A stretch of 54,873 nucleotides of DNA from Nitrospirota bacterium. Its GTDB lineage: Bacteria > Nitrospirota > Thermodesulfovibrionia > Thermodesulfovibrionales > UBA1546. Position numbers and translations under genes: made by a program. The DNA lies in the NCBI GenBank assembly GCA_026387575.1, contig JAPLLK010000048.1, forward strand, positions 1 through 54,873, in the 5' to 3' direction. The notes under the pieces are model-generated. The model saw only the letters and a program-made list of their open reading frames with translations. It was not told where the DNA came from and did no database searches. Positions 3,785-35,831 of the stretch are shown piece by piece (within the stretch, counting starts at the first letter, position 1; every line of letters begins with the position of its first letter).

Positions 3785-4528
3785 ACACTTCCCATATTCC
3801 TTGACAAGTTAGTAATACCTCCTGTAACATAATACCCATGCCGAGGATTGCAAGAGTGTGCGCAGAGGGATACCCCCATCATATAACTCAAAGGGGGAAC
3901 AATAAAGAAAAAGCCTTTTTCGATGATAAAGATAAACAGTTTTATCTTGAGGCACTTCGCAGATACAAAGACAAATATAAAATGAAGATACTCGCATACT
4001 GTCTAATGGAAAACCATGTTCATATTCTTGCAGTGCCTGAAAAGGAAACATCACTGGCAAGAGGCATAGGCGGGACTAACCTTCTTTATACACAATATAT
4101 AAACCGTAAATATGAAAGAAGTGGAAGGCTATGGCAAAACAGGTTTTTCTCGTCAGTCATTGAGAAAACACCTTATTTATGGGCAGTGATGAGATACATA
4201 GAGCAAAATCCGGTAAGGGCAAAACTTGTCAAGAGGGCAGAAGACTATAGGTGGTCAAGCGCACTGGCACACATATCAGGCATTAAAGACAACATCCTTT
4301 CAGATGAGTGGCAGTTTGATGAAAAGGAAAACAAATCATACTGGGAATTCATAAATAAAGATGCAAAAGAGATAAGTGCAACCATAAGACGTGCGACATC
4401 AACCGGTAGACCTCTTGGTAGCGAAGGGTTTATAAAAAAACTGGAGAAAATATTGAATCGAAATCTCTTTCCGAAGAAAGGCGGCAGGCCAAAGAAGAAA
4501 GGAAAGAAATAATATGGGAAGTGTCCCT
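3781..4528 (+). mobile_element. RAYT/IS200-like element bounded by an 18-bp perfect inverted repeat
   Basis: agggacacttcccatatt (3781-3798) and aatatgggaagtgtccct (4511-4528) are exact reverse complements flanking the transposase ORF. Confidence 0.85.
3838..4512 (+). CDS. REP-associated (Y1_Tnp, IS200-like) transposase
   Basis: MPRIARV..GYPHHITQRGNNKE, 'YCLMENHVHILAVP', 'RYIEQNPVRAKLV' motifs. Confidence 0.93.
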   Translation: MPRIARVCAEGYPHHITQRGNNKEKAFFDDKDKQFYLEALRRYKDKYKMKILAYCLMENHVHILAVPEKETSLARGIGGTNLLYTQYINRKYERSGRLWQNRFFSSVIEKTPYLWAVMRYIEQNPVRAKLVKRAEDYRWSSALAHISGIKDNILSDEWQFDEKENKSYWEFINKDAKEISATIRRATSTGRPLGSEGFIKKLEKILNRNLFPKKGGRPKKKGKK

Positions 4529-32302: not shown

Positions 32303-33703
32303 CTACTTAATCTTATACTCTTTAATCTTTGTCCTCAGTGTATTCCTATTTATCCCAAGGGTTTTTGCTGCCTTGAGCTGATTGCCCTTTGTCTCCTTAA
32401 GGACAATGCTTATCACAGCCTTTTCAACTTCGGACATTACAGTTGTGTGCAGGTTCGCTGTCTCAAGTTGTGTCATGTCTTTCAGATATTTCTTTAATTT
32501 ATCCTCAAGGAATTCCTTTATTGAATAAGAGTTCCCTTCCTCAACGTGGAGGTCGCGCTTTTCTATTGTTGTACCGTTTGACAGGATACAGGCGCTTTTT
32601 ATTGTGTTCTCAAGCTCTCTGACATTGCCCGGCCAGTCATACTTGGCTATGAAATCTTTTGCCTCTTTTGAGAGTTCTTTCTGCCCTGTATTGAATTTTT
32701 TCTGCGCCTCTTTGAGGAAATGCTTTGCGAGTATGAGTATATCTTCCCGGCGGTCTCTTAATGAAGGCAGTTTAATCTGCACAACATTAAATCTATAATA
32801 AAGGTCTTCCCTGAATAACCCCTTGCTCACAGCATCTTTCAGGTTTTTGTTTGTCGCGCCTATTATCCTTACATCTGCCTTTGTCACCTTGTTGCTCCCA
32901 AGAGGACTTAATTCATTGTCCTGCAAAAACCTCAGAAGTTTTGCCTGAAGGTTCATGTCAAGTTCCGATATCTCGTCAAGGAATAATGTGCCTCCGCTTG
33001 CTGATTCTATCTTTCCGATGCGTTTGTCTTTTGCCCCTGTGAATGCGCCTTTCTCCCATCCGAAAAGCTCTGCCTCAATGAGGTCTTTTGGCATTGATGC
33101 GCAGTTTATTGCAATGAAGGGGCCGGAACTTCTTTTGCTGTTATGGTGTATTGCCCTTGCAACAAGCTCTTTGCCTGTTCCGCTTTCGCCTGTGATGAGA
33201 ACTGTGATATCCTTTGTTGCAACCCTTCCTATTTCTTTGAATACCTTAAGTATTTTTTCACTCCTTCCCACTATCTCAGGCGCTTCTGCCTCTGTCTCCT
33301 TGAACTTTTTGAGTTCTTCCCTCAAAGCCATATCCTTAAATGCCTTTTCAACGACTATCTTGAGTTCCTCAATATCAAAGGGCTTTTCAATATAGTCATA
33401 AGCGCCTTCTTTCATCGCATCGATTGTGCTTTCCATTCTCCCGTGAGCTGTTATCATTATCACTGTTGCCTCGGGATTTGATGATTTAATTTCGCGAAGC
33501 CCGTCAATGCCGTTTCCATCAGGCAGGATAAGGTCAAGCAGTATGACCTGCGGCTCGTCTTTTACGGCTTTCATGCCTGAAGTGAGTTTTGTGTGCGAGA
33601 CGATCTTATAGCCCTGCGGTTCAAGAGCCTTTTCTATGACCCACGCTATGCTTTCATCATCGTCAATTATCAGAACTTCTTTGTTCATTGAATTATTTGC
33701 CAA
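32303..33703 (-). CDS. NtrC-type sigma-54-dependent response regulator
   Basis: Receiver domain, 'VLITGESGTGKELVARAIHHNS', 'GAFTGA', Fis-type HTH C-terminus. Confidence 0.96.
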   Translation of the reverse strand: MANNSMNKEVLIIDDDESIAWVIEKALEPQGYKIVSHTKLTSGMKAVKDEPQVILLDLILPDGNGIDGLREIKSSNPEATVIMITAHGRMESTIDAMKEGAYDYIEKPFDIEELKIVVEKAFKDMALREELKKFKETEAEAPEIVGRSEKILKVFKEIGRVATKDITVLITGESGTGKELVARAIHHNSKRSSGPFIAINCASMPKDLIEAELFGWEKGAFTGAKDKRIGKIESASGGTLFLDEISELDMNLQAKLLRFLQDNELSPLGSNKVTKADVRIIGATNKNLKDAVSKGLFREDLYYRFNVVQIKLPSLRDRREDILILAKHFLKEAQKKFNTGQKELSKEAKDFIAKYDWPGNVRELENTIKSACILSNGTTIEKRDLHVEEGNSYSIKEFLEDKLKKYLKDMTQLETANLHTTVMSEVEKAVISIVLKETKGNQLKAAKTLGINRNTLRTKIKEYKIK

Positions 33704-33708
33704 GCGCG

Positions 33709-33832
33709 CATGATATGGTATTTAAGCGGATTTTTTGCCGATATTCCAAAAAAATATTCTGAGAATAAAGAGGCAAAAACCTCGGAGTCCCGATTTTATC
33801 GGGACGCGAATGAGCGAAAATATTATATCATG
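33709..33832. repeat. Foldable repeat element, copy L
   Basis: Terminal stem catgatatggtattt/aaatattatatcatg; internal cccgat-ttt-atcggg hairpin; related to copy R in reverse orientation. Confidence 0.8.
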
Positions 33833-33840
33833 TGCGTTTC

Positions 33841-34875
33841 TTACTCCCCCTCAAAAGGTATATAAATATTAAATGCAGCCCCTTTTCCTTCATGGCTTTC
33901 AACCTTAATGAATCCCTTGTGGTCCAGAATAATTTTTTTTGATAGGGCCAGCCCTATGCCTGTTCCGTGCTTCTTCTTAGTATAAAACGGAAGAAATATT
34001 TTTGGAATATCCTCGGAAGGAATTCCCTCGCCTGTATCCTTTACGGAAGTGACAGCCCAGCGTTTTGGTTTGCCCTTCTGCCGCACATATTCCCTTGATA
34101 CACCTGTCAGGACTGTCAGGCTTCCTCCTTTTTTCATCGCCTCTATGGCATTTTTGATTATATTCAGAAATACCTGAAGCAGTTTCCCTTCATCTCCCAT
34201 AACTCTCGGAAGGCTCAGGTCATACGTCTTCTGCAAGATGATGCCCTTGTCTTTCATTGGAATGTCCATGATAGATAATGCTTTTTCCAAAACTTCATGG
34301 ACATTAAGCGAGTGGAATGACGGTTTTTTACAAATTGTCAGATAATTCTGCAGTACTGAATTCAATCTGTCCGTCTCTTTGATTATAAGAGTCACATATT
34401 CGCCGATGCCTTCGGTCTGTGTCTTTTCACGCAGGAGCTGCGCTGCTCCTTTTATGCCTCCAAGAGGGTTTTTAATCTCATGGGCTAAAGCGCCGAGGAG
34501 GTATATCAGGGAATCAAACTGATAGTCCTCTCTCTCAGCAATGGCGATGTTTTCCTTAAGTGAAAGGACAGCGCCCTGAGTTTCTCCCTGAACAAAAAAC
34601 GGCGAGATGTTAAAGTCAGCGTTTATCATTTTGCCAATATTTATATTTACCCCCCTACCGCTGAAAGAACGTTCTTCAGATATGGACTTTCTTATCAATC
34701 CTGCCATGGTTTTTTCTTCCGGAAATAATTCTTTGAACTTTTTCCCTTTTACTTCTTTCAGGCTTTTCCCCAAAAGCTCCTCGCCGGTTCTGTTCACAAA
34801 TTTTATCACAGCCTTTCTGTCAAACAGAACAATGGCGTCCTCAATGCTGTTTATTAGCGCCTCAAATGAAAACAT
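33841..34875 (-). CDS. PAS-domain sensor histidine kinase, NtrB-like
   Basis: 'GALAHEIKNPLGGIKGAAQLL' H-box; 'VFLNIIKNAIEAM' and 'GTGIGLALSKKII'. Confidence 0.95.
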   Translation of the reverse strand: MFSFEALINSIEDAIVLFDRKAVIKFVNRTGEELLGKSLKEVKGKKFKELFPEEKTMAGLIRKSISEERSFSGRGVNINIGKMINADFNISPFFVQGETQGAVLSLKENIAIAEREDYQFDSLIYLLGALAHEIKNPLGGIKGAAQLLREKTQTEGIGEYVTLIIKETDRLNSVLQNYLTICKKPSFHSLNVHEVLEKALSIMDIPMKDKGIILQKTYDLSLPRVMGDEGKLLQVFLNIIKNAIEAMKKGGSLTVLTGVSREYVRQKGKPKRWAVTSVKDTGEGIPSEDIPKIFLPFYTKKKHGTGIGLALSKKIILDHKGFIKVESHEGKGAAFNIYIPFEGE

Positions 34876-34893
34876 ATAAAATATATATAGTAA

Positions 34894-35054
34894 ACAAGAA
34901 TAGCATTTTTGCTCATTCGCGCCCCGATAAAATCGGGATAGACTTCTCCGCCTCTACGGATTCGCCTGAGGCGAAGAGGTTTTTGCCTCTTTATTTTTTA
35001 ATATGGCTTACTTTTTGAATATCGGTAAAAAATCTGCTCAAATGCTATTCTTGT
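34894..35054. repeat. Foldable repeat element, copy R (inverted relative to copy L)
   Basis: 15-bp perfect terminal stem acaagaatagcattt/aaatgctattcttgt; shares 27/28 and 19/19 blocks with copy L in reverse complement. Confidence 0.8.
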
Positions 35055-35060
35055 CTATTT

Positions 35061-35831
35061 TTATTCTGTGTGTATAATTCTCTGCGGGTGCGTATAAACG
35101 TTGAGCCTGTCCCCCCGGACAAATCCGACAAGCGTACTCCCCCTTAATCCTGCAATCTCAATTGCAAGATGAGTTGGCGCTGTCCTGCTTGCAACTATCG
35201 GGATGCCACATTTGGAGCATTTTGATGCAATCTCTGATGAAAGCCTACCACTTGCAAGCATCAGCTTTCCTGCGAGACCTATGTTTTCAAGCACAGAATA
35301 TCCTATGACCTTGTCAACGGCATTATGCCTTCCTATATCCTCTGCGAATGCGATAATGTGCCTGCCGTCTGAAAGCGCGGCGCTGTGAACGCACCCTGTA
35401 AGCCGGTAGAGGTCAGAACGGATCTGGAATTCCTTAAAGATGCTGAGAAGGCTCTTTGCCTCAATTGAAAATTCATCTCTTACCTTTTCATCCTCTACCT
35501 TTTTTACAAATGTGATACCGCCTACGCAGCCTGATGTCTGAACCCTGCCTTCTTTTGGGATAACTGCGTCTGCTGAATTTATGTTTACAACAATATCGTC
35601 ACCGTATTCTATGCTCATCCTGTCAGCACACCATTCACCTTTAATAATTCCTTCTGTCATGAGTATGCCGACCACAAGCTCTCTTATCATAAAAGGAGTG
35701 CAGTAAAGGCTTATAACCTCCTCCTCGTTTATAAGTATTCTAAGCCTCTTTTCAACGGCTACCGCATCATCTGCCTTTGTGACAGAATTTCCTCTAATCT
35801 TGAGTATTGTCTTTTTTGTTGATGCATTCAT
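35061..35831 (-). CDS. fdhD: Formate dehydrogenase accessory sulfurtransferase
   Basis: 'GCVGGITF', 'TGCVHSAALSD', 'EDIGRHNAVDKVIG', 'SGRLSSEIASKCSKCGIPIVASRTAPT'. Confidence 0.95.
   Translation of the reverse strand: MNASTKKTILKIRGNSVTKADDAVAVEKRLRILINEEEVISLYCTPFMIRELVVGILMTEGIIKGEWCADRMSIEYGDDIVVNINSADAVIPKEGRVQTSGCVGGITFVKKVEDEKVRDEFSIEAKSLLSIFKEFQIRSDLYRLTGCVHSAALSDGRHIIAFAEDIGRHNAVDKVIGYSVLENIGLAGKLMLASGRLSSEIASKCSKCGIPIVASRTAPTHLAIEIAGLRGSTLVGFVRGDRLNVYTHPQRIIHTE

Follow-up and report, generated by a model that had tools for sequence, protein, structure and literature searches.

Here we describe two copies of a foldable intergenic element that lie on either side of a histidine kinase gene in a Nitrospirota bacterium. 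The DNA analysed, referred to below as the window, is a stretch of 54,873 nucleotides (contig JAPLLK010000048.1, assembly GCA_026387575.1), in which the genes for an FdhD/NarQ family protein, the kinase and an NtrC-type response regulator all lie on the - strand (Table 1). The two copies are in opposite orientations, and each occupies a spacer between codirectional genes. Copy L is found in the kinase-regulator spacer with its folded strand antisense to the operon, which is the majority arrangement in the family, and copy R in the fdhD-kinase spacer with its folded strand sense to the operon, the minority arrangement.

Table 1. Positions of copies L and R, their parts and the neighbouring genes in the window
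Feature	Position	Strand	Evidence or remark
NtrC-type response regulator (Response_reg, Sigma54_activat, HTH_8), neighbour	32303..33688	-	Pfam
Copy L	33705..33836	folded strand + (consensus orientation -)	cmsearch 113.5 bits; orthologous sites empty
L P1 5' arm, CGCG CATGATATGGTATTT	33705..33723	+	sequence, fold, P1 pairing
L P3 5' strand, TTTTTGCC	33732..33739	+	helix covariation; position from sequence
L P3 3' strand, GGCAAAAA	33772..33779	+	helix covariation; position from sequence
L P2 arm	33781..33808	+	exchangeable hairpin
L P1 3' arm, AAATATTATATCATG TGCG	33818..33836	+	sequence, fold, P1 pairing
PAS-HisKA-HATPase histidine kinase, neighbour outside element	33841..34875	-	Pfam
Copy R	34891..35057	folded strand - (consensus orientation +)	cmsearch 95.3 bits
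R P1 arm, 3' on folded strand	34894..34908	-	
R extra hairpin segment enlarging P2 arm	34939..34974	-	
R P1 arm, 5' on folded strand	35040..35054	-	
FdhD/NarQ family protein, neighbour	35061..35831	-	Pfam

A preliminary description of the locus had reported shared blocks in inverted orientation, a separate terminal stem in each copy and an additional segment with a further hairpin in R. Its coordinates were right: the blocks are 90% identical over 39 nt (33788-33826/34900-34938), identical at 20 of 20 positions (33764-33783/34976-34995) and 84% identical over 37 nt (33715-33751/35012-35048). The terminal stem of L (33709-33723/33818-33832) pairs fully on the + strand if G.U is allowed and extends a further 4 bp outward (33705-33708 with 33833-33836), the terminal stem of R pairs at 15 of 15 positions, and the additional R segment is real, being a lengthened P2 hairpin. 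The window has two occurrences of GAGGTTTTTGCCTCTTTAT, where 0.06 would be expected, and L has folding z scores of -7.7 (+ strand) and -7.2 (- strand). The copies, blocks and stems of that description therefore stand, and its interpretation is supported in part.

Among 126 copies, L and R are unique in the absence of one base from the spacer that precedes CCGCT, and they alone have ATTCGCG instead of ATTCTCG; in a congener (G007; L118), the copy between kinase and regulator has the same one-base deletion. The deletion and the variant common to L and R suggest that the pair arose by local duplication. These two features, together with the inverted placement of two related copies around a gene, would also suit a switch in which the copies are the arms for inverting the kinase gene, as the preliminary description had entertained. 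However, the likeness of the copies is limited to short blocks, the congeners examined all keep the order and orientation of fdhD, kinase and regulator and in no case have both copies; we regard such a switch as very improbable.

Family size and distribution

The first extra copies came from a DNA search of the window's genome, and a covariance model was built from 35 copies; the copy sample is drawn from the best-scoring copies, and the genomes are MAGs or assemblies. By covariance-model search, the 1.63-Mb, 98-contig MAG to which the window belongs contains 12 full copies, L and R included. Copies number from 1 to 15 in seven genomes of the same genus, from 10 to at least 54 in other members of the family (at least 54 in several) and from 0 to 35 elsewhere in the order. 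A short motif from the left half of the element occurs 107 times in the 2.5-Mb genome of a relative (G010) against three occurrences of a reversed control (~104 above control). Further copies of the kind that the preliminary description proposed to seek by nucleotide search thus exist, 12 here and about 100 in this relative.

An exact 25-base pattern, sought across 84,980 prokaryote species, each represented by a single genome, gave 40 matching stretches, all from Nitrospirota MAGs apart from those labelled Nitrospinota KR13_N2.mb.31; that genome, for all its label, matches one of the window's own genus (G005). Of 198 genomes sampled across the phylum, 27 match, almost all of them in the window's order. 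A viral origin is unsupported, the exact pattern having no match among viral contigs. For the window copies, L126 and 13 further loci, no Rfam covariance model other than those of tRNAs gave a family above its gathering score, and no description of the element family was found in the literature searched, the coverage of which was incomplete.

The element is a previously undescribed, intergenic, non-coding sequence of ~110-170 bases, found dispersed in genomes of a single lineage, the Nitrospirota. A poorly cultured group thereby gains a structured repeat family with good support. Within a single genome the copies are divergent rather than near-identical, which gives no indication of a recent burst. 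They border unrelated and diverse genes, and the association with the kinase is incidental.

A three-way junction on one strand

On the consensus strand the element is laid out as CAGGATAYAGYATTTTCGCTCATTCTCG-(hairpin)-CTCCGAGG-N-TTTTGCCTCTTTATT-(variable)-GAATATCGGCAAAANAAWCCGCTCAAATACTATATCCTG, and three helices, P1, P2 and P3, are backed by covariation in sets of 35 to 126 copies. P1 pairs the ends of the element over ~20-21 bp and ends sharply, at ~21 bp, with background pairing from about position 22. Its inner nine positions are conserved in sequence; its outer ten are near arbitrary, with all four pair types present and about half of the positions agreeing between two copies of one genome. 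Positions 11-18 from the junction are 93-97% Watson-Crick paired, most of them against 45-64% after shuffling. The P2 hairpin is freely exchangeable in both sequence and length (GCTGCGC, GGTCTTCGACC, GGGCTAAAGCCC and CCCGATAAAATCGGG among others) and is longer in R; in L the arm consists, in order, of CTC, a GGA bulge, the hairpin GTCCCGATTTTATCGGGAC and GCG, where the consensus has GAG. P3 comprises 8 bp, NTTTTGCC paired with GGCAAAAN. Its closing pair is U-A, C-G and A-U in 32 copies each (108 copies), and an inner G-C switches to A-U in step.

In the set of 35 copies, 16 of the 33 pairs are altered on both sides. Double-changed cells number 114, against 31.7 in shuffled and 15-23 in slid controls, and none of 500 shuffles reached the observed value. 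The covariation exceeds what composition and phylogeny would give, as judged from the shuffles, the slid controls, the P3 closing pair and the compensated changes between orthologous copies described below. Strong stem covariation is thus confirmed, and the earlier suggestion of a structured element survives; the further claim of selection on structure is not proved by covariation alone, since template switching also yields compensated stems.

The two strands are not equivalent. Read on the consensus strand, the P1 mismatches number 219 for A.C against 43 for G.T, so that most of them are G.U mismatches on the opposite strand. This asymmetry stems from the inner ten P1 positions, the outer positions giving a ratio of 32:21 that is not significant; the model with which the copies were collected penalised A.C on the consensus strand, so that any collection bias would oppose the result. 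With no structure supplied, RNAalifold recovered P1, P2 and P3 on the opposite strand (-44.4 kcal/mol), against part of P1 only on the consensus strand (-26.5 kcal/mol), and 115 of 126 single copies have the lower MFE on the opposite strand. Furthermore, in 106 of 126 copies a conserved 2x2 internal loop, TC/TC when read on the consensus strand, becomes a tandem G.A when read on the other. It is the opposite strand, + for L and - for R, that carries the conserved fold. The consensus strand, sense to the operons, had been considered as the functional one, a view overturned by the mismatch asymmetry and RNAalifold.

Several copies (L054, L056, L057, L062, L067, L068 and L082) have another palindrome, roughly CCCCCCTTRNCAAGGGGGG flanked by CCCCCC/GGGGGG, in the P3 loop, an insertion by which small palindromes come to be nested within the element. 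Small palindromes such as CCCGATAAAATCGGG and GGGCTAAAGCCC also act as the exchangeable P2 arm (C70:5540 region, L040; many copies), and CCCGATAAAATCGGG is found elsewhere too, for example within the terminator-like GGCGCCCCGATAAAATCGGGGCGCC.

Placement in spacers and change at orthologous sites

According to mechanical gene calls, which give crude open reading frames, 76 copies lie between genes that both run in the consensus direction, 16 between genes that both run in reverse, 16 between convergent and 11 between divergent genes. The ratio of 76:16 departs strongly from even (p about 1e-10), as measured in fragmented assemblies where gene direction and replication direction are inseparable. 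The folded strand is antisense to the operon at 76 of the 92 co-directional sites, with L conforming and R an exception, and the strong fold is thus usually on the strand that is not mRNA. In the co-directional set the element starts at a median of 8 nt past the stop codon and ends at a median of 20 nt ahead of the next start.

The kinase-regulator spacer measures only 12 bp in three congeners (G001, G002 and G003), in which the kinase shares 92-95% identity with that of the window, and holds a copy in the opposite orientation in G007; the fdhD-kinase spacer lacks a copy in six congeners. Near-clean empty sites were also found for C21 and C41 and for the G011 copies at L153 and L161, and together with the kinase-regulator gap these sites display the insertion polymorphism looked for in a MITE. 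The empty orthologous sites in congeners indicate that copies are gained and lost, and the possibility of a non-autonomous mobile element, raised in the preliminary description, survives both on this gain or loss and on the existence of further copies. The Shine-Dalgarno-like GAGGGGGAG of the regulator is located, in congeners, at the stop of the kinase gene and beside the regulator start. L inserts ~150 nt between the two (window 33688-33700, 33837-33860), and by parting them it may have made translation of the regulator dependent on its fold.

Some copies are older. In a spacer that we take, from the protein sequences as read, to be that between grpE and dnaJ, the same copy with a near-identical P1 is present in G000 and G011, a site common to different genera, and congeners carry unrelated foldbacks there. 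Given such inter-genus sites, the divergence within genomes and the lack of a burst, part of the presence/absence pattern may reflect loss or replacement rather than insertion.

Congener spacers also contain foldbacks built from short tandem units together with the complementary units, such as (AAGTTA)n...(TAACTT)n and (GACAGT)n...(ACTGTC)n, in which the units differ by genome within the same spacer (L116, L117, L119 and L120 for fdhD-kinase; L191, L192, L194, L246 and L241 for grpE-dnaJ). At such places the sequence of the hairpin seems to turn over while the foldback persists. Some element sites in G013-G015 (L240, L232, L236, L244) are occupied or interrupted by larger intergenic repeats, of the TGTCATTGCGAG / TGTCATTCTGGCTTGTCCAGAATC type.

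The position just past one stop codon and ahead of the next start, the strong strand-specific covariation and the frequency with which congener spacers (grpE-dnaJ, fdhD-kinase) carry an unrelated foldback, as if a hairpin were wanted, would all be in keeping with a structured RNA that has a cellular role, either as an intercistronic processing, stability or attenuation signal or as a small RNA made from the folded strand; an orientation-dependent effect on mRNA stability has been reported for ERIC (PMC2229807). This alternative, unlikely overall, would have copies retained for the benefit that a hairpin brings to operon spacers. It must contend, however, with a conserved fold that is mostly antisense to the operon and has no known promoter for the folded strand, with several orthologous spacers that are free of hairpins, among them the 12-bp kinase-regulator gap, and with diverse target genes and an orientation that is not fixed. 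If the family is instead a mobile element, the reading that we prefer, copies would persist mainly in operon spacers with the strong fold on the strand opposite the mRNA, and the orientation bias would result from the loss of copies that place this fold in operon mRNA.

Orthologous copies carry compensated changes (L054/L081, L158/L229, L066/L127), and one pair of orthologues (L146/L242) shows a paired single-base deletion. At one site the copies of G011 and G015 have opposite orientations and a 15-nt arm in common, and in G014 the bare outer (P1) hairpin alone remains. Such changes recall template-switch RNA hairpins, in which perfect stems are created and maintained and loops inverted, with paired changes like those between our orthologous copies (Monttinen and Loytynoja 2022, PMC8794818). 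The element might accordingly be conceived as a mutational product, a long-lived passenger without selected structure whose inverted repeats are made or repaired, and whose loops are inverted, by template switching, and the G011, G015 and G014 site would lend itself to this account. We judge it improbable. Template switching is a mutation mechanism rather than an element family, and it leaves the conserved core and its dispersal to ~100 sites unaccounted for, as it does the A.C/G.T strand asymmetry, the conserved junction, the tandem G.A loop and the P3 covariation. The strand asymmetry, P3 covariation and conserved junction additionally argue for selection on the fold, and template-switch copying of one arm from the other may act together with such selection to keep P1 perfect. 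With up to ~100 paralogous stems per genome in addition to orthologous sites, the family provides a natural test set for selection versus template-switch copying.

Mode of spread and likeness to known elements

One core common to many sites in unrelated spacers leads us to view L and R as members of a dispersed, non-coding, intergenic Nitrospirota family that is most likely a non-autonomous mobile element of the MITE/ERIC type, with a probability of roughly 0.6. Its repetition, its occupancy of spacers left empty in close relatives and its three-way junction on one strand, with a tandem G.A step in P1, are direct observations. As in a MITE, the sequence is non-coding, short (~110-170 bp, where MITEs are below ~200 bp) and multi-copy (12 to ~100 copies per genome). 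Inverted ends are present, but their outer ~10 bp are unconserved, unlike sequence-conserved TIRs held in common with an autonomous element, and we found neither conserved terminal nucleotides nor an autonomous partner element. Direct repeats at the ends of 126 copies were no more than in shuffled flanks, giving no target-site duplication (TSD). On account of these TIR and TSD results the element is not filed as a classical MITE. When left- and right-half motifs were listed in G010 and the halves paired non-exhaustively, no version with an ORF-bearing loop stood out.

The kind itself is already known: ERIC, Correia/NEMIS, RUP and CIR are examples of small intergenic elements that are dispersed and fold from end to end (PMC2229807). 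ERIC (IRU/RU-1) and Correia/NEMIS are likewise ~100-170 bp long, non-coding, intergenic and dispersed, with an end-paired hairpin, and sit in transcribed spacers (PMC2229807); the copies described here are similarly intergenic, near genes and closed by an end-to-end stem. ERIC and NEMIS have fixed terminal repeats with TA and a TSD, whereas here the outer 10 bp are near free and no TSD was seen, and the conserved three-way junction, exchangeable arm and strand-specific fold also set the present family apart from them. The CcrM-associated intergenic repeats (CIR) of Caulobacter and Brucella are, like our element, dispersed and intergenic with a conserved multi-arm, RNA-like structure and unproven mobility (PMC2229807), but their two arms come with a linker and a GANTC motif, they lack a 5'-3' end stem, and they belong to an unrelated lineage.

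Ends of free sequence, the lack of a TSD and a strand-specific fold make the family a misfit with the usual transposase-TIR picture. Ends without fixed sequence, no detectable TSD, a conserved junction and a one-strand fold suggest that movement would involve recognition of a folded single strand, DNA or RNA, together with the conserved junction. A bolder and distinctly speculative extension, to which we give a rather low likelihood, is that this is a class of mobile element recognised by the shape of the folded strand alone, with the terminal stem remade or re-perfected at each site, and spread by an undescribed structure-specific enzyme or by an RNA/ssDNA route. The mode of spread is a testable question. 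The origin of the outer stem as an inverted duplication of target DNA was also considered; it fits L, where the right arm is TCATGTGCG, the target is TCATGCGCG and the left arm is the complement, but C21 and C41 do not conform, and it was not generalised.

In integron attC sites the bottom strand carries the recognised fold and the end sequences vary; attC and IS605-type biology combine a strand-specific fold with no TSD, a gene-trailing position and a bottom-strand bias. A REP unit is short, has a conserved foot and is linked to a Y1 transposase, and REP/REPIN sequences are possibly recognised as ssDNA. The present copies resemble attC as gene-trailing imperfect hairpins with varying ends and the fold on the bottom strand, and resemble REP/REPIN with RAYT as high-copy intergenic palindromes. 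Their strand-specific fold, lack of TSD, gene-trailing position and antisense (bottom-strand) bias would fit an attC-like DNA-hairpin recombination site, or an ssDNA element of the IS200/IS605-REP type, that is mobilised by a HUH or tyrosine recombinase resident in the genome. We nevertheless find this quite doubtful. The GTTRRRY/RYYYAAC core boxes are absent from the 35-copy consensus, and, unlike attC, the copies have no R-box core, form no cassette arrays and do not take their flanking genes with them, the neighbours being unmoved where the element is absent. Neither a REP-type conserved foot nor a linked Y1 (RAYT) transposase was found here. Y1 transposase genes (PF01797) do not track copy number across genomes and are absent from G013, G009 and G001, which have 23, 10 and 2 copies, a mismatch that leaves a link to an IS200/RAYT transposase unsupported. 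The sole match to a Y1 (IS200-like, PF01797) transposase in this genome lies in the window itself, at 3880-4209.
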